NCBI RefSeq assembly: GCF_007744515.1 | Contig: NZ_CP036268.1 | Coordinates: 1,589,712-1,653,711, forward strand | Direction of reading: 5' to 3' | DNA from: Stratiformator vulcanicus | GTDB taxonomy: Bacteria > Planctomycetota > Planctomycetia > Planctomycetales > Planctomycetaceae | DNA length: 64,000 nucleotides | Shown: positions 56,350 through 64,000 of the stretch, in pieces | Position numbering within the stretch: the stretch's first letter is position 1 | Layout: every line of letters begins with the position of its first letter | The notes under the pieces: generated by a model | The model's database searches: none | Told to the model about the DNA's origin: nothing | The model's input: the letters and a program-made list of their open reading frames with translations, nothing else | Program-made: the position numbers and the translations under genes

Positions 56350-58869
56350 ATGCTTCAATGGAATCTGCGCTCGCGGTCTGCGCGTCGTCGCCGCCGTCCT
56401 GAAATTAAGGTTGAGCCGCTCGAACAGCGGGTCGTTCTTTCTGCCGACATTCCCACGATTAATGGGATCGGCAACAACCTCAACAACCCCGACTGGGGCA
56501 GTACCGAAACGGAGCTGTTAAGAAACACCGAGGCGGAATATACCGACGGAACGTCGTCGCCCGCCGGTGATGATCGCCCCAGTGCCCGAGTGATTAGTAA
56601 CACGGTCGGCGATCAGGAAAGCGATGCGACGAATGATCGCTACCTGACGGACTACGTTTGGATTTGGGGGCAGTTCATTGATCACGATATCGACCTGACC
56701 GAAGGGGCGTCTCCGGCAGAAGAGTTTAACATCGACGTACCGCAGGGCGATCCGCTGTTTGATCCGAATGGGACTGGGACGCAGCAGATTCCTCTGGACC
56801 GCTCCATCTACGAGGAAGATGCCGACGGGACGCGGCAGCAGTTAAATCAAATCACTGCGTTCCTCGACGGCTCGGTGATCTACGGGTCCGACGATGTCAG
56901 AGCGAGTGAACTGCGAACGTTCAATGGCGGAAAATTAAAGACCAGCAGCGGCGATCTTCTGCCATTCAATGAAGCGGGGCTTCCGAATGCCGGCGGGCCG
57001 AGCGACTCGCTGTTTCTTGCCGGTGACGTGCGGGCGAATGAAAACGCCGCTCTTACCGCAATGCACACGGTCTGGGTGCGAGAGCACAACCGCATTGCCG
57101 ATGAACTCGCAGCCGGAGATTCGAGCCTGAACGATGAAGAGATTTACCAACTGGCGCGGGCTCGCGTGACCGCTCAACTGCAGGCGATTACCTACAACGA
57201 GTTTCTTCCCGCGTTACTGGGTGATGGCGCGCTCGCCGAATACCAAGGTTACGATGACTCGGTCAATCCCGGTATCGCGAACGTCTTTTCGACGGCGGCT
57301 TACCGACTCGGTCATAGTTTGCTGTCGCCAACGCTCTTAAGGGTTAATGCCGACGGCTCAACCGCAGCTGATGGGAACATCGCACTGCGAGATGCCTTCT
57401 TTAATCCATCCGCGGTCACAGATGAAGGAATTGATTTATTGCTTCGGGGCGCGTCCTTACAAAATGCGCAGGAACTCGATACTCAAATTATTGATGATGT
57501 CCGGAACTTCCTGTTTGGACCTCCGGGAGCAGGGGGCTTTGATCTGGCATCCTTAAACATTCAGCGCGGGCGCGATCACGGCTTGGCAGACTATAACCAG
57601 GCCCGGGTCGACTACGGCCTTGAACCGGTTAGTTCGTTCTCGGAAATCACTTCCGATCCAATTTTGGCGGCGAAGCTCGAATCGCTTTACGGCAGCGTCG
57701 ATAACATCGACGTCTGGGTAGGCGGTTTGGCCGAGGATCACGTTCCCGGCTCAAGCGTCGGAGAGTTGTTCCAGACGATTATTGCCGACCAGTTCGAACG
57801 CATTCGCGATGGTGATCGCTTCTGGTATCAAAACCTCTACTCCGGCGCCGAACTGTTTGAGATCGACAACACGACCCTCGCTGATGTGATTGAACGCAAC
57901 ACCGACATCGACGGTCTGCAGGAGAACGTGTTCTTCGATCGTGCCGTCCTTCGATTGGAGTTGGCTGATTTTGGAACGACTCAGGTAGAAATTGCGAAGA
58001 GCGGTCAGGACCTGGTTATCTCCGACCGCGTTTCGGGATCGGTGTTGGCGGTTGCGGCCATCCAAGATTTGAAGCAGGTCGTGATTGTGGGGACCGCCGC
58101 GAATAATGAGCGAGTGACGGTCAGGGCGGGCGCCGCTGCCGCAGGACTCGAAGGCGGCATTCTGTTCTATGGGAGCCATGGCCAACGCGATCGGCTGATC
58201 GTCACGGGGACGCGACACGCCGACACTTTTGTCGTCGACGGCCATTCCGTTGTGCTTAATGGGTCGGAAGTGCAGGCGTTTCACGTTGAAAATCTGGACC
58301 TGCGAGCTCGAGGAGGGGATGACGTCATGTCGGTCCGTCGAGAATCGGCTGCCAAAATACGGATGTTCGGCGGTAACGGAGATGACCGGCTCTTCGGCGG
58401 GGAGGGATGGGATTTGCTCTCCGGTGGGAACGGCCGCGATCTCCTGTTCGGCAATGGGGGCAATGACGACCTGCGCGGCGGCGCGGGATCGGACAGGATT
58501 TTCGGCGGAGCTGGTGATGACTTCATTGATGCGGGCGAAGGACATGACCTCGTATTCGGCGGGCGCGGCGCGGACTTTATCCTAACCGGACTCGGTTTTG
58601 ATATCGCATTCGGCGGCCCTGGTCATGACACAATCGACGGGCGGACTGATCGTCGCCGAGTTGCCAAGAAGCCACCGGCCCCGCGTTCGGGCGAGCCCGG
58701 TTCCGGCAAGTCCGATTCGGATAGCAAGAAACACAATCGCAGTCGGAACGATGCACCTCCCCAAGTTGCAAAGCGACAGGAGTTGCAATCGGGAGAGAGT
58801 GCGAAGCAACATCGCTCTGATGCCAAGTCGGAGCAAGGTCGCCGACGGACAGGTCGCGGTCGCGCTTGA
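56350..58869 (+). CDS. Secreted animal-type heme peroxidase with RTX repeats
   Basis: 839 aa from ATG 56350 with GAGG upstream. The N-terminus carries KVEPLEQRVVLSADIPTING, close to the planctomycete LEPR-x-LLSA export motif. Peroxidase motifs: distal His WIWGQFIDHDIDLTEGA at about 106, ALTAMHTVWVREHNRIADEL, proximal His in AYRLGHSLLSPTLLRV, and LNIQRGRDHGLADYNQ. Residues about 674-757 are Gly/Asp nonapeptide repeats (GGNGDDRLFGGEGWDLLSGG; GGAGDDFIDAGEGHDLVFGG) that bind Ca2+ in RTX proteins. The C-terminus is basic and hydrophilic. Secretion of RTX proteins usually needs a type I system; an atypical one follows (59185-64000). Confidence 0.92.
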   Translation: MLQWNLRSRSARRRRRPEIKVEPLEQRVVLSADIPTINGIGNNLNNPDWGSTETELLRNTEAEYTDGTSSPAGDDRPSARVISNTVGDQESDATNDRYLTDYVWIWGQFIDHDIDLTEGASPAEEFNIDVPQGDPLFDPNGTGTQQIPLDRSIYEEDADGTRQQLNQITAFLDGSVIYGSDDVRASELRTFNGGKLKTSSGDLLPFNEAGLPNAGGPSDSLFLAGDVRANENAALTAMHTVWVREHNRIADELAAGDSSLNDEEIYQLARARVTAQLQAITYNEFLPALLGDGALAEYQGYDDSVNPGIANVFSTAAYRLGHSLLSPTLLRVNADGSTAADGNIALRDAFFNPSAVTDEGIDLLLRGASLQNAQELDTQIIDDVRNFLFGPPGAGGFDLASLNIQRGRDHGLADYNQARVDYGLEPVSSFSEITSDPILAAKLESLYGSVDNIDVWVGGLAEDHVPGSSVGELFQTIIADQFERIRDGDRFWYQNLYSGAELFEIDNTTLADVIERNTDIDGLQENVFFDRAVLRLELADFGTTQVEIAKSGQDLVISDRVSGSVLAVAAIQDLKQVVIVGTAANNERVTVRAGAAAAGLEGGILFYGSHGQRDRLIVTGTRHADTFVVDGHSVVLNGSEVQAFHVENLDLRARGGDDVMSVRRESAAKIRMFGGNGDDRLFGGEGWDLLSGGNGRDLLFGNGGNDDLRGGAGSDRIFGGAGDDFIDAGEGHDLVFGGRGADFILTGLGFDIAFGGPGHDTIDGRTDRRRVAKKPPAPRSGEPGSGKSDSDSKKHNRSRNDAPPQVAKRQELQSGESAKQHRSDAKSEQGRRRTGRGRA

Positions 58870-59184: not shown

Positions 59185-61089
59185 ATGACAGCCGTCTATC
59201 AACCAATCGCTCGCCTGCTGCCGCTCTCTGCAAGAGCTGTCGGGACGATTGTATTGCGGCGGTCACGCGAGTTGGCCGATTGCTCCGACACGGAACTGGG
59301 TGACCTCGCTCGTTCCGTGCGATGGCAATTGAGAGAGCGCCCCGGTTCCTCCTCGCTGCGAATCGAAACATTCGCGGTGGTGGCATCCGCTATTCGCCGG
59401 GTGTTCGGTTTCGAGCCTTACGGCGTACAGATTCGAGGCGGCTGGCAGATGTCCTCGGGTCGGCTCGTCGAAATGCAAACCGGCGAGGGGAAAACGATCA
59501 CAGCGTTACTTCCCGCCGCCTTTCATGGCTCGTTCGGACGTGGATGCCATGTGGCCACCGCAAACGATTATCTGGCCGAGCGGGATGCCGACGAGATGGG
59601 GCCGGTCTTCCGGATGTTGGGCCTGAGCGTGGGATGCGTCCGCGAAGACATGTCGGACGACGATCGCCGAACGGCCTACCACTGCGATGTCACATACGGC
59701 ACAGGAAAAGAGATGGGATTCGACTTCCTGCGCGATTGCCTCAAGCGTGGCCCTCAAAGCGGTGACGCGATCGCCCCGATCGGGGTTAACGAACTGCCCG
59801 TGCAGCGAGAGCATTATTTCGCTCTTGTCGACGAGGCCGACAGCGTATTGCTGGACGAAGCACGAACTCCGCTCGTCATTGCCGGGCCGCCGGATGACAA
59901 TCGGACCGAAGAGACGCTGAGGCATTGGGCCGACAGCACCTGCCGGAACTTAGAACCGCAGCGAGATTTCGTCATCGAGGCCAAAAAGCGTTCCGTTGAA
60001 CTAACCGATGCCGGTTGTCGACGCGTGACATTAACCGCGCGATCGGCGTCGGCGAGGCTCTTTCCCGTCGAGCAATTGTTCTCCGCCGTCGAGACCGCGC
60101 TGGTGGCCCGCCACGTCTTTGTGCGTGATCGCGACTATATCGTGAACGAGCAGGGCGAAGTCGAAATTATTGATCTTTCGACGGGTCGGCGGCGAGTCGG
60201 AAGCCGATGGCAGGAGGGACTTCACCAAGCCGTTGAGGCGAAAGAAAAGTTGGTCATTTCAGCCGATTCGACCACGTCGGCTCGCGTCACGATACAGAGT
60301 TATTTCCGCCGGTATCGGCATCTTGCGGGGATGACCGGAACGGCGATGTCGGCCAAGCTGGAGTTTCAAAAGACCTATCGTCTGCGGACCTGTTCGATTC
60401 CCACGCATCGACCCAGCCGAAGGGTCGCACGACCGACCCGCGTGTTCATCGATGCCGCTGCGAAGTGCCGGGCGATCGCCGATGAAACACAAACGATGAT
60501 CGAATCGGGCCGGCCCGTGCTTATCGGAACGCCTTCGGTCGAGGCGTCCGAACTTGTTGCGGCGGCGCTGTCGGAAGCGGGCATCGTCTTCAGCCTGCTG
60601 CATGCCCGCCGAGACGATGTCGAGGCCGAAATCGTTGCTGCAGCGGGACAGGCGAGCCGGGTTACGGTGGCGACAAATATGGCGGGTCGCGGGACCGATA
60701 TCCGCCTTGAAGATTCGGTGAAATCCGCGGGCGGGTTGCACGTGATCGCCACCGAGCGACACGCGTCCGGACGTGTCGATCGTCAGTTGGTCGGACGGGC
60801 GGGGCGGCAGGGTGACCCGGGCACGTTTCGGTTTGTGCTCTCGCTCGACGATGAGCTGCTGCATCGACTCGGCTCGGCCCGCATCGCGCAGCTCAAACGG
60901 ATGGCCCGCCCGGACGCCCATGGAGAATTGCGGGCCGATCGGTGGGAGAAGTTGTTCCTTCGAACGCAGGCGCGGATCGAACGCCGGGATCGCAAACAGC
61001 GGGCGATGCTTCTGAAGTCGGAAACCAAATCACTGGCCGCCTGCGAACGCATGGGAATCGATCCGAATCTCGAGTGGTGCGACTTGTAG
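59185..61089 (+). CDS. Short SecA-like ATPase
   Basis: 634 aa, against about 850-900 for normal SecA. SecA motifs: Walker A MQTGEGKTITALLPAA at about 96, ANDYLAERDADEMG, TYGTGKEMGFDFLRD, VDEADSVLLDEARTPLVIAG, HLAGMTGTAMSAKLEFQKTY, VTVATNMAGRGTDIRLED, HVIATERHASGRVDRQLVGR, AGRQGDPGTFRFVLSLDD. The C-terminal part is cut short: no full helical wing, and no zinc SEC-C motif. It looks like a specialised SecA2-type motor, not the main SecA. Downstream are two adaptor-type genes on the same strand (76 and 1 bp gaps), suggesting a dedicated export role. Confidence 0.9.
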   Translation: MTAVYQPIARLLPLSARAVGTIVLRRSRELADCSDTELGDLARSVRWQLRERPGSSSLRIETFAVVASAIRRVFGFEPYGVQIRGGWQMSSGRLVEMQTGEGKTITALLPAAFHGSFGRGCHVATANDYLAERDADEMGPVFRMLGLSVGCVREDMSDDDRRTAYHCDVTYGTGKEMGFDFLRDCLKRGPQSGDAIAPIGVNELPVQREHYFALVDEADSVLLDEARTPLVIAGPPDDNRTEETLRHWADSTCRNLEPQRDFVIEAKKRSVELTDAGCRRVTLTARSASARLFPVEQLFSAVETALVARHVFVRDRDYIVNEQGEVEIIDLSTGRRRVGSRWQEGLHQAVEAKEKLVISADSTTSARVTIQSYFRRYRHLAGMTGTAMSAKLEFQKTYRLRTCSIPTHRPSRRVARPTRVFIDAAAKCRAIADETQTMIESGRPVLIGTPSVEASELVAAALSEAGIVFSLLHARRDDVEAEIVAAAGQASRVTVATNMAGRGTDIRLEDSVKSAGGLHVIATERHASGRVDRQLVGRAGRQGDPGTFRFVLSLDDELLHRLGSARIAQLKRMARPDAHGELRADRWEKLFLRTQARIERRDRKQRAMLLKSETKSLAACERMGIDPNLEWCDL

Positions 61090-61165
61090 ACAAGAAACCG
61101 ACGAGCCTTTTCGCCAAGCGACAAGTGCGGTCGAACGGCATTCAGGAAATTAGCGAAACACGTTG

Positions 61166-63193
61166 ATGGCGAAACAAATCGAAAAACACGGGCCGGTCGA
61201 CACGCAGCGTCTGCGGGAACTGGAGCAGATTGTCAGCTCGTCGCTCGAGCCGAACGAATTGCTGCGAGAGTTCCTGAGTCGTCTTCTCGAAGCGGTCGAC
61301 GGTCGGTCGGCGACGGCCTGGCAGTTGATCGGGCGGCAAATCAGGCTCGCGATCGAAACGAAGTCGTCGGCCGAGGTCGTTTCGGCTGCCCCCGCGTTGC
61401 GACAGAAGATGACGGCGATGGCGATTCGCGAACGAACGCCGCAACTCTATTTTCCGGGCGACGGCGAGGAGGCACAATCGTTCGCTCAATCGGCGGCAAC
61501 TTCGGGCGACGACAGTCTTTTTCAGCCCACGATCGTCGTACCGCTTCGCGTTGATGACGAGATGATCGGCTCGATCGAAGTCGCCTTCTCGGACGACACG
61601 CCGCGTGACGTCATTGCGGCGCGGCTCGAAGCCGCGGAGTGGGCGGCGAATCTGCTCTGCGGCCATCTCGGTTCGAAAGTGCCGCTGCAATCGTCCGAGA
61701 CATCCGATTCGAACTCGCTGCCACAGGAGACCTACGCGTTTCGGCTGCAGCGGCAGTTCGATACGAACGGCGTGTGCCGAGCTATCGCGAATGAGGCCGC
61801 GTTGCTATTGAGTGCCGATCGTGTCGCCGTCATTTTGAAACGCGGCAGGCGCGCGAAGGTGGAGGCCGTGACCGGACAGGAAACGGTTCATCGTCGGTCC
61901 GAAGTCGTCCGCGCGTTGGCCACGCTCGGCAAAGAGGTCATGCGGTTTGACGGAATCGTCGAACATGACGGTTTTCACTTCGAACACGCGCCGTCGATCG
62001 AGAAGCCGCTCGCGAAAGTCGTGCAGGTCAGCGGGACACGTGCGCTCTTGGCCGTCCCGCTTCATGAGCCGGAGCGACCGAAAGCGGGCGATGACAAGGC
62101 GATTGAAAGTCCGCAACGGCGTCCGCCCCGTGTGATCGGTTGCCTGATCATCGAGTGGTTGCGTGACGTCGAACCACCCGCCGACCGTCGGACGAAGGCG
62201 GATCAGATTATTCCCCTGACTGAGGTGACGGTCACCAACGTTCGCGCTGCCGACCGGATTCCGCTCCGCCCGGTACAGCGGATGTGCGGCAAGGCGATCG
62301 AAGCAATCAAGACGCGATATCGTGTTCAGGCGATGGCCGTCGCGGTTCTGCTGGTCGTCGGGACGGCGGCCTGCTGTTTCGTCCCCGCGCCCTATCGGGT
62401 CACCGTCGACGGCGAATTAATGCCCGAGGTCCGCCGGCGTGTCTTCGCCGCGATCGACGGCGACGTCACCGACGTACATATTTCGGGCGGCGATCATGTG
62501 AAGCAGGGGCAGTTGCTGGCGACGCTCCGCAATGAGGAGTTAGAAGCCGAGTTGATCGGTATTCGAAGTGAAATCGGAGAGAAGGAGCAGCACCGCCGGG
62601 CATTGACCTCACGCTACGAAATCGCTTTTCGTGGAGGACAACGCGAGGAAGCGATTGATTTGCAGGGACAGATTGCCGGGCTGCGGGCGGAGTTGACGGG
62701 GCTGAAGCGAAAGGCGGATGTCCTTTCTCAGCGTTACGAACGATTGAAGATTTATTCCCCGCTGACCGGGACGGTGGCGACCTTTCGGGTGAAGGAAAAT
62801 CTGATCGGCCGCCCCGTCACCCGCGGAGAAGTGCTGATGGAGGTGATGGACGAGACCGGGCCGTGGCGGATCGAACTGGAAGTTGATGAGCATCGCCTCG
62901 GCCACGTGAAGCGTTCGATCCAAAATCGCGAAGAGGCGTTGCCGATCGAGTACCTGATTTTGACGACGCCCGAGCAGACTTACCCGGCGTCCCTCGAACG
63001 ACTTAGCAATCGCACCGTTCCGAGTGACGAGGGAATGTCGAAAGTCGACGCGCACGCATCGCTCGGAGAGCGGCAACCGCCGCTGCGAATCGGAGCCGAC
63101 GTCAGGGCACGCATCGACTGCGGCGACCGCTCCTTGGGGTATGTGATCTTCGGCGACGTGATCGAATTCGTTCGTCGCTACCTTTGGTTCTGA
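61166..63193 (+). CDS. GAF-type sensor fused to HlyD-type membrane fusion protein
   Basis: 675 aa from ATG 61166. The N-terminal about 370 residues are cytoplasmic with two GAF-like regions: LREFLSRLLEAVDGRSATAW ... TIVVPLRVDDEMIGSIEVAF, and GVCRAIANEAALLLSADRVA ... RALLAVPLHEPERPK. One membrane helix follows (VQAMAVAVLLVVGTAACCFV, about 387-407). The periplasmic part is HlyD/biotinyl-lipoyl-like: GDVTDVHISGGDHVKQGQLL, a coiled coil with LRAELTGLKRKADVLSQRYE, and IYSPLTGTVATFRVKENLIG. This joins a small-molecule sensor to an adaptor that normally bridges inner and outer membrane pumps. The gene for a second adaptor starts right after it. Confidence 0.85.
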   Translation: MAKQIEKHGPVDTQRLRELEQIVSSSLEPNELLREFLSRLLEAVDGRSATAWQLIGRQIRLAIETKSSAEVVSAAPALRQKMTAMAIRERTPQLYFPGDGEEAQSFAQSAATSGDDSLFQPTIVVPLRVDDEMIGSIEVAFSDDTPRDVIAARLEAAEWAANLLCGHLGSKVPLQSSETSDSNSLPQETYAFRLQRQFDTNGVCRAIANEAALLLSADRVAVILKRGRRAKVEAVTGQETVHRRSEVVRALATLGKEVMRFDGIVEHDGFHFEHAPSIEKPLAKVVQVSGTRALLAVPLHEPERPKAGDDKAIESPQRRPPRVIGCLIIEWLRDVEPPADRRTKADQIIPLTEVTVTNVRAADRIPLRPVQRMCGKAIEAIKTRYRVQAMAVAVLLVVGTAACCFVPAPYRVTVDGELMPEVRRRVFAAIDGDVTDVHISGGDHVKQGQLLATLRNEELEAELIGIRSEIGEKEQHRRALTSRYEIAFRGGQREEAIDLQGQIAGLRAELTGLKRKADVLSQRYERLKIYSPLTGTVATFRVKENLIGRPVTRGEVLMEVMDETGPWRIELEVDEHRLGHVKRSIQNREEALPIEYLILTTPEQTYPASLERLSNRTVPSDEGMSKVDAHASLGERQPPLRIGADVRARIDCGDRSLGYVIFGDVIEFVRRYLWF

Positions 63194-63194
63194 A

Positions 63195-64000
63195 ATGTCC
63201 GTCATGATTTTCGCCGAAGACTTGTCGTCTGATATTCCTACTGAGGCAGCGACCGTGAAAACAATTTTGTGCGTCTTCGCTCTCGTTCAATTCGCGGTCG
63301 TCGCGAGCGCGAGCGAGCCGATCACGATTCCGGAGTGCAGCGTGCGGCCGGATGAACGCGCAGTCCTCGCATCCGGCCAACCGGGTGTGATTGCCGAGGT
63401 GAAGGTGAGCGAAGGCGATCGCGTCGACGTTCGCGAATTACTCGTCCGCTTATTTGACGACGAGGCAAAGGCGGCATTGGCGGCCGCGGCGAAACAAGCG
63501 GATAACGACGTCTCTTATCGCTATGCGGTCAAGGCGGCGGAGCTTTCTCAGGTCGAGTACGAAAAGGTGCTCGAGGGGAACCGCCGGACGCCCGGAACGT
63601 TCCCCGACATTGAAGTGCGTCGCTTGAAATTGGATGCCGAACGAGCCCGGCTCGAAATTGAGCAGGCCCAGCACGAGCAAGCGATGGCGAAGCTGAGCGA
63701 GGACGAAGCCGCAGCACGGCTCAAGTTGATGCATGTGAGGGCACCGTTTGGCGGGTTTGTCACCCACGTGATGAAATCCGAAGGCGAAGCCGTGCAGGAT
63801 GGTTCGCCGATTCTCGAACTGATCTCGACTCGCAAAGTGAAGGTTGAGGGAGCTGTCGACGTCCACCTGTTGCCCCGGATCAATCCGGGGCAGCGCGTCG
63901 AGGTTCGGGTTGAGGACCCGCTGCTCGCCGAGATTCTGAGGCATCCTGTGCTCGAGGGCGAAATCGTCTTCGTCGACACGCAGGTCCAGCCGGTCGACCC
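63195..64000 (+). CDS. HlyD/RND-type periplasmic adaptor, cut by window end
   Basis: Partial: the frame runs open to 64000. GTG 63255 gives a clean signal peptide (VKTILCVFALVQFAVVASAS); ATG 63195, 1 bp after the previous stop, is the alternative. After the signal come the lipoyl half-motif AVLASGQPGVIAEVKVSEGD, a long coiled coil (LKLDAERARLEIEQAQHEQA) and the second half MHVRAPFGGFVTHVMKSEGE, then a beta-barrel (VEGAVDVHLLPRINPGQRVE). This is the layout of membrane fusion proteins. It pairs with the GAF-HlyD protein in one operon. The pump or outer-membrane partner must lie beyond 64 kb. Confidence 0.85.
   Translation, partial: MSVMIFAEDLSSDIPTEAATVKTILCVFALVQFAVVASASEPITIPECSVRPDERAVLASGQPGVIAEVKVSEGDRVDVRELLVRLFDDEAKAALAAAAKQADNDVSYRYAVKAAELSQVEYEKVLEGNRRTPGTFPDIEVRRLKLDAERARLEIEQAQHEQAMAKLSEDEAAARLKLMHVRAPFGGFVTHVMKSEGEAVQDGSPILELISTRKVKVEGAVDVHLLPRINPGQRVEVRVEDPLLAEILRHPVLEGEIVFVDTQVQPVD

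Follow-up and report, generated by a model that had tools for sequence, protein, structure and literature searches.

A short SecA, an M50-HlyD protein and LEPR-XLL leaders: a candidate dedicated export route in Stratiformator vulcanicus and several other phyla

What does a shortened SecA do at the head of a row of HlyD-type adaptor genes, and what might such a gene set export? The question is raised by an operon at the end of the window, i.e. the 64,000-nucleotide stretch of the Stratiformator vulcanicus chromosome that was analysed. A first-pass annotation had placed the shortened SecA directly before a GAF-HlyD and an HlyD gene, which the ORF positions and Pfam matches confirm. It had also treated the operon as a trio; the three genes are as described, but a fourth, PqqD-M50-HlyD, lies just past the window, so that the M50 peptidase sought beyond 64 kb is present, fused to PqqD and HlyD. 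The relevant features are as follows.

56350 to 58869, plus strand: candidate cargo gene, 839 aa from the ATG at 56350; LEPR-XLL leader, animal haem peroxidase and RTX
56410 to 56448, plus strand: leader core VEPLEQRVVLSAD, by direct reading; fits the consensus [VLMFI]E.[LMI]E.R.LLSAD
59185 to 61089, plus strand: short SecA gene, 634 aa; NBD1, PPXD, NBD2 and the start of the scaffold helix (Pfam)
61163 to 63193, plus strand: GAF-transmembrane-HlyD adaptor gene, 676 aa; Pfam GAF 8.3e-6, HlyD_3 2e-10
63195 to about 64115 (the window ends at 64000), plus strand: HlyD-type periplasmic adaptor gene, 306 aa; HlyD_3 1e-14
about 64112 to 66355, outside the window (L005:8824-11067): PqqD-M50-HlyD gene, 747 aa; M50 Pfam 2e-7, NF041824 3e-56

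The three operon genes that begin within the window lie on the plus strand, with gaps of 73 bp (SecA/GAF-HlyD) and 1 bp (GAF-HlyD/HlyD). Just outside the window, the PqqD-M50-HlyD gene shares 4 bp with the end of the HlyD gene. Three of the encoded proteins bear HlyD domains. In the 676-aa adaptor, the GAF match is above cut-off and N-terminal to an apolar stretch, AMAVAVLLVVGTAACCF, which separates it from the HlyD_3 part; the GAF portion is thus presumably cytoplasmic and the HlyD portion periplasmic. The 306-aa adaptor begins with a signal-like stretch. In the three modules of S. vulcanicus that were read, no ABC transporter gene was found and no operon ATPase other than the short SecA, and the stretch read contains no TolC-type channel gene next to the window module.

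A locus of this kind was published by Kamneva, Poudel and Ward in 2015 as a secondary SecA_DEAD or type I secretion-like locus (PMC4452313), comprising a SecA without the full wing-scaffold, GAF-HlyD, M50-HlyD, HlyD and sometimes OEP genes. The authors also report the absence of an ABC transporter, propose SecA as the ATPase and M50 as a possible pore, name no substrate and call the broader role 'completely unknown'. The window operon, with a truncated SecA_DEAD beside GAF-HlyD, M50-HlyD and HlyD, belongs to this kind of locus.

The short SecA matches SecA_DEAD (8.9e-92), P-loop_SecA (5.7e-51) and SecA_PP_bind (3e-23). Its ATPase motifs (GEGKT, DEAD and GRAGRQGDPG) are intact, and they are invariant or nearly so across 46 relatives from different phyla. 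The family profile aligns to residues 11-608 of Bacillus subtilis SecA (3jv2, 1tf5) and ends at about 608; the wing, two-helix finger and C-tail are absent. An AF2 model (pLDDT 89) shows one long terminal helix, corresponding to the start of the scaffold helix, and in Foldseek its best TM-scores are to SecY-bound, substrate-engaged SecA (6itc, TMq 0.85; 5eul, 0.82; also 3dl8). The protein reaches none of the NCBIfam cut-offs for SecA or SecA2, including that for housekeeping SecA (TIGR00963, 578 bits against a cut-off of 800). An accessory SecA2 identity was rejected on the scores for TIGR03714 (481 against 930), TIGR04221 (458 against 725) and TIGR04397 (560 against 1085) and on the single SecY gene of the genome. 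Replacement of the housekeeping SecA, which the first-pass annotation had named as grounds for dropping its reading, is ruled out by the presence of ordinary SecA as a separate 1182-aa gene; two further short SecAs are encoded elsewhere in the chromosome. In genome G022, which has a strong LEPR match, the place of SecA in a module that is normal in other respects is taken by a very divergent SecA-like ATPase (L034:11157-13109; 125 bits, against about 530 for others).

In the M50 protein, the HExxH and N..NP...DG motifs are invariant in 64 of 64 relatives, and the protein is accordingly predicted from its motifs to be a site-2 (M50) protease. A PqqD domain was matched in 53 of these 64 relatives. 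The AF2 model (pLDDT 92.5) comprises an N-terminal PqqD-like fold, about seven membrane helices and an HlyD domain; given a cytoplasmic N-terminus, the model would place the HlyD part in the periplasm and HExxH near the cytoplasmic side. Among NCBIfam models the protein matches that of the RRE-M50 daptide peptidase, NF041824, best, although at 191 bits it falls below the equivalog cut-off of 300. Only HlyD-like proteins appear among the Foldseek matches listed for this model, and no inner-membrane channel of the route was identified.

A candidate cargo is encoded upstream of the short SecA. The product of this gene, whose ATG at 56350 is preceded by AGAGGG, matches NF012209 (LEPR-8K) at residues 20-34 (19.7 bits, cut-off 17; the profile is only 24 positions long) and contains An_peroxidase (1.5e-165) and HemolysinCabind (1e-19) domains. 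This haem peroxidase-RTX protein may well be the cargo of the window module. The leaders of giant proteins, read at their 5' ends, consist of a basic stretch followed by [VLMFI]E.[LMI]E.R, a hydrophobic run and usually SAD; the first E is present in 15 of 16 SecA-type giants and replaced by D in the remaining one, and the full consensus recurs in giants that adjoin the module in other phyla. Within the loci, the SecA-type leader was found in 13 of 1182 N-terminal windows and 1 of 2920 internal windows, and the FDGA type described below in 16 of 1182 and 0 of 2920, respectively. By a crude test distinct from a signal-peptide predictor, the 19-residue hydropathy maximum of the leader is about 0.3-1.5, against 1.7-2.2 for the signal peptides of HlyD adaptors. 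The leader, basic and of low hydropathy and without a Sec-like hydrophobic core, thus contains no evident Sec signal, and the domains that follow it are of extracellular types (RTX, cadherin, Ig and DUF4347-bearing). Proteins with an N-terminal LEPR-XLL leader, often thousands of residues long, are strong candidates for the cargo. NF012209 misses LEDR..LLSA and several FDGA/LDA variants that adjoin modules, so that LEPR cargo is undercounted. The leader was also seen on a stop-free frame of 19,427 codons (G173:C115:112865, minus strand) in a genome with several M50 modules.

The four-gene set occurs three times in the 5.23-Mb chromosome of S. vulcanicus, two further copies (L006 and L007) being in other gene orders. 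Seven LEPR genes over the NF012209 cut-off are present in the whole genome, with frames of up to 9375 codons; the 9375-aa frame adjoins module 2, as does an OEP gene, and another LEPR gene lies directly upstream of the window SecA. A fourth M50 gene, without SecA, is located about 5 kb from a LEPR gene. Three of the five M50 genes are within 12 kb of a LEPR gene start, a number that random placement attained 53 times in 200,000. Module 3 (L007) is complete and flanked by multihaem cytochrome and redox-enzyme genes; no LEPR gene over cut-off lies within 150 kb of it, and its cargo, if any, is located elsewhere.

The association of leader and machine was examined in 78 Planctomycetota genomes and an even draw of 199 Pseudomonadota genomes. 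All nine planctomycete genomes with LEPR over cut-off carry short SecA and M50-HlyD (Fisher 3e-8); in Pseudomonadota, M50 is present in 59 genomes, LEPR in 38 and both in 36 (Fisher about 1e-21), p-values that overstate independence because the genomes are related. M50 is present in 35 of 35 Pseudomonadota genomes whose leader-bearing ORF is 500 aa or longer; the two LEPR genomes without M50 have their NF012209 matches in frames of 178 aa (G115) and 99 aa (G188), taken as chance. Short SecA occurs in 19 of the 199 Pseudomonadota genomes, accompanied by M50 in 19 and by LEPR in 18, and all 26 copies lie 14-973 bp from M50. Where a LEPR ORF shares a contig with M50 in this phylum, the two are within 15 kb in 30 of 32 cases, mostly 1.7-2.5 kb apart, which is space for one GAF-HlyD gene; on seven long contigs, 9 of 10 leader ORFs are within 15 kb, and at least four linked leader ORFs on such contigs arose in 24 of 200,000 random placements.

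Searching genome contigs with the M50 profile gave 80 loci from many phyla, most of them with SecA, GAF-HlyD and HlyD genes. Besides Planctomycetota, the module occurs in Pseudomonadota, Verrucomicrobiota, Nitrospirota, desulfobacterial groups, Omnitrophota and Fibrobacterota. The genes are therefore linked in many genomes, contrary to the unlinked state that would have counted against the first-pass reading, and the suggestion that the route is specific to the planctomycete cell envelope was abandoned, a planctomycete-specific function being ruled out by the occurrence across many phyla. Among 35 genomes that harbour such M50 loci, 28 carry LEPR above the cut-off, with frames reaching 13,078 codons; in at least 10 of them a giant frame begins with the leader and ends a few kb from M50 on the same contig, whose length was identical in the M50 and LEPR searches. 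TolC-type matches were found in 23 of 115 loci examined. In G036 and G065, two members of the family-level group to which S. vulcanicus belongs, SecA is not linked to M50; there, the short SecA lies beside LEDR/LEPR proteins (L038, ORFs of 1594 and >1288 aa; L042, one of 2006 aa), which is a separate tie of SecA to cargo, independent of M50. In these two loci the short SecA gene is placed divergently to the LEDR/LEPR genes, one of which has a cyclophilin-type isomerase domain and cadherin-like repeats. No NF012209 match was found in seven short-SecA genomes (G013, G027, G036, G045, G052, G060 and G146), among which G036 carries the LEDR variant overlooked by that profile. The module thus travels with leader-tagged giants across several phyla, which suggests a dedicated export machine; the claim of a dedicated export route is well supported by this comparative evidence (leader-machine co-occurrence and adjacency).

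A branch of the M50 family without SecA bears on the role of the ATPase. In a FastTree phylogeny of M50 (126 rows), the SecA-less genes form one clade of 21 members with support 1.0, and the 11 genomes checked from this clade have a single SecA, the housekeeping one. The variant loci (L145-L163 in Pseudomonadota; L053, L054 and L056 in Planctomycetota) contain an HlyD gene of about 270 aa, an HlyD gene of about 440-460 aa in which no GAF was seen, M50-HlyD of about 700 aa and TolC, with cargo leaders such as LEPRMMFDGAVAAT or LEERIVLDA. The M50 neighbours in this clade are Ig/cadherin/DUF4347 proteins with LE.R..FDGA or LE.R.VLDA leaders. The ligand gating through GAF proposed in the first-pass annotation stays hypothetical, and this variant lacks GAF as well as SecA. 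The contrast between LLSA leaders with SecA and FDGA leaders without it (p=2e-5) reflects mostly one old split in the M50 tree, i.e. about one event, and adds no independent evidence. SecA is therefore part of one large section of the M50 family and not obligatory for the M50 core, and this branch is the strongest reason for caution about SecA as motor.

The link of leader-bearing cargo to the operon is much firmer than the mechanism. What is directly established is the order of the genes, the presence of an RRE (PqqD) domain, the integrity of the ATPase and protease motifs, and the co-occurrence and adjacency of leader and machine. We consider it probable that the window operon exports LEPR-leader proteins, with M50-HlyD as reader and processor of the leader and the short SecA as motor. 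The set would then resemble type I secretion and be dedicated to the export of extracellular proteins that carry LEPR-XLL at the N-terminus, as a rule giant repeat or RTX proteins. The leader would be bound in the cytoplasm by the PqqD/RRE domain of the M50-HlyD protein, possibly also by the short SecA, which would clamp the unfolded chain and thread it by ATP hydrolysis into the inner-membrane M50-HlyD complex; the M50 zinc site would clip the leader, and HlyD adaptors with a TolC-type channel would carry the cargo outward. Export of the cargo, binding and cleavage of the leader and the direction of transport are what we infer.

That the short SecA drives the M50 complex rather than feeding SecYEG is likewise an interpretation. 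If LEPR cargo instead crossed by ordinary SecYEG, with the short SecA as a dedicated feeder and M50-HlyD, HlyD and TolC only processing the leader and spanning the periplasm, the one SecY of the genome would suffice, no other Sec channel being known here, and the SecA-less clade would simply rely on housekeeping SecA; the similarity of the model to SecY-bound, substrate-engaged SecA (6itc, 5eul, 3dl8) fits as well. SecA, however, engages SecY through its scaffold, wing and two-helix-finger region, which the short SecA lacks; moreover, the leader has no Sec-like hydrophobic core, and SecA gene order is tied to M50 (26 of 26), not to sec genes. We therefore regard the SecYEG route as unlikely. 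Somewhat less likely still is a short SecA acting as a chaperone or quality-control unfoldase that keeps the giants unfolded while the M50 complex exports them with another energy source. The SecA-less variant, with the same M50 core and long cargo, would agree with this, as would the M50 protein EpeP, proposed both to cleave and to export its peptide (PMC10885120), but the operon holds no other ATPase, and the short SecA retains its helicase motifs, which hardly vary between phyla.

Small ligands are bound by GAF domains, and in other systems HlyD adaptors and RRE-M50 peptidases take part in the export of RiPPs and drugs, so that the operon might export or sense a small molecule or RiPP, its link to LEPR proteins being incidental. 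The co-occurrence and adjacency with LEPR giants, replicated in independent phyla, make this highly improbable, and the loci read showed neither a RiPP precursor nor modifying enzymes. A role of the M50 gene as the protease of a RiPP cluster was rejected on the same absence of modifying enzymes.

The preferred reading, export of leader-tagged proteins by a SecA-driven M50-HlyD complex, joins two questions, namely the role of the secondary SecA locus described in 2015 and the exit of giants without an evident Sec signal from Gram-negative cells, and a named leader with a named machine makes both testable. Should the cargo cross the membrane through M50-HlyD itself, this protein would represent a kind of export channel different from those of ABC, RND and Sec systems, with SecA co-opted as the motor of a non-Sec route. 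We give even chances to a broader view, that of a leader-defined secretion system outside the numbered types, in which RRE-M50-HlyD replaces the ABC transporter and reads the LEPR leader, one branch is SecA-driven, and the whole is a main secretion route for the largest proteins of many Gram-negative phyla.

What the present analysis adds to the 2015 account (PMC4452313) is the PqqD domain, the candidate cargo with its LEPR leader and the sister clade without SecA; the words LEPR, giant and PqqD are absent from its main text, and 'substrate' appears there once, on type I secretion generally. A literature search, mostly of papers outside subscription, gave none that links the LEPR leader to the M50/SecA machine. 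The locus was thus already known, and the cargo candidate is new as far as the literature searched shows. The module resembles accessory SecA2 systems in having an additional SecA in the genome and presumed special cargo, and differs from them in a short SecA that is below the SecA2 cut-offs and without the C-terminal region, and in the lack of a second SecY. With type I secretion (HlyB-HlyD-TolC) it shares HlyD adaptors, RTX or giant adhesin-like cargo and, in 23 of the 115 loci examined, a TolC-type match; it differs in having no ABC transporter and, according to the cargo N-termini analysed, in marking its cargo with an N-terminal leader. The RRE-M50 RiPP peptidases (daptide MpaP/DapP, NF041824; EpeP/YydH) share the PqqD/RRE-M50 fusion and a short leader whose core, E-L-x-x-[ML]-E, is similar. 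The leader motif of daptide precursors, ELExMEAP (PMC10036551), is close to ELEPLEPR of one giant found here (L174), a suggestive sequence resemblance. In contrast to these peptidases, the module M50 is below the NF041824 cut-off, fused to HlyD and linked to SecA, and its cargo is a giant protein rather than a modified peptide.
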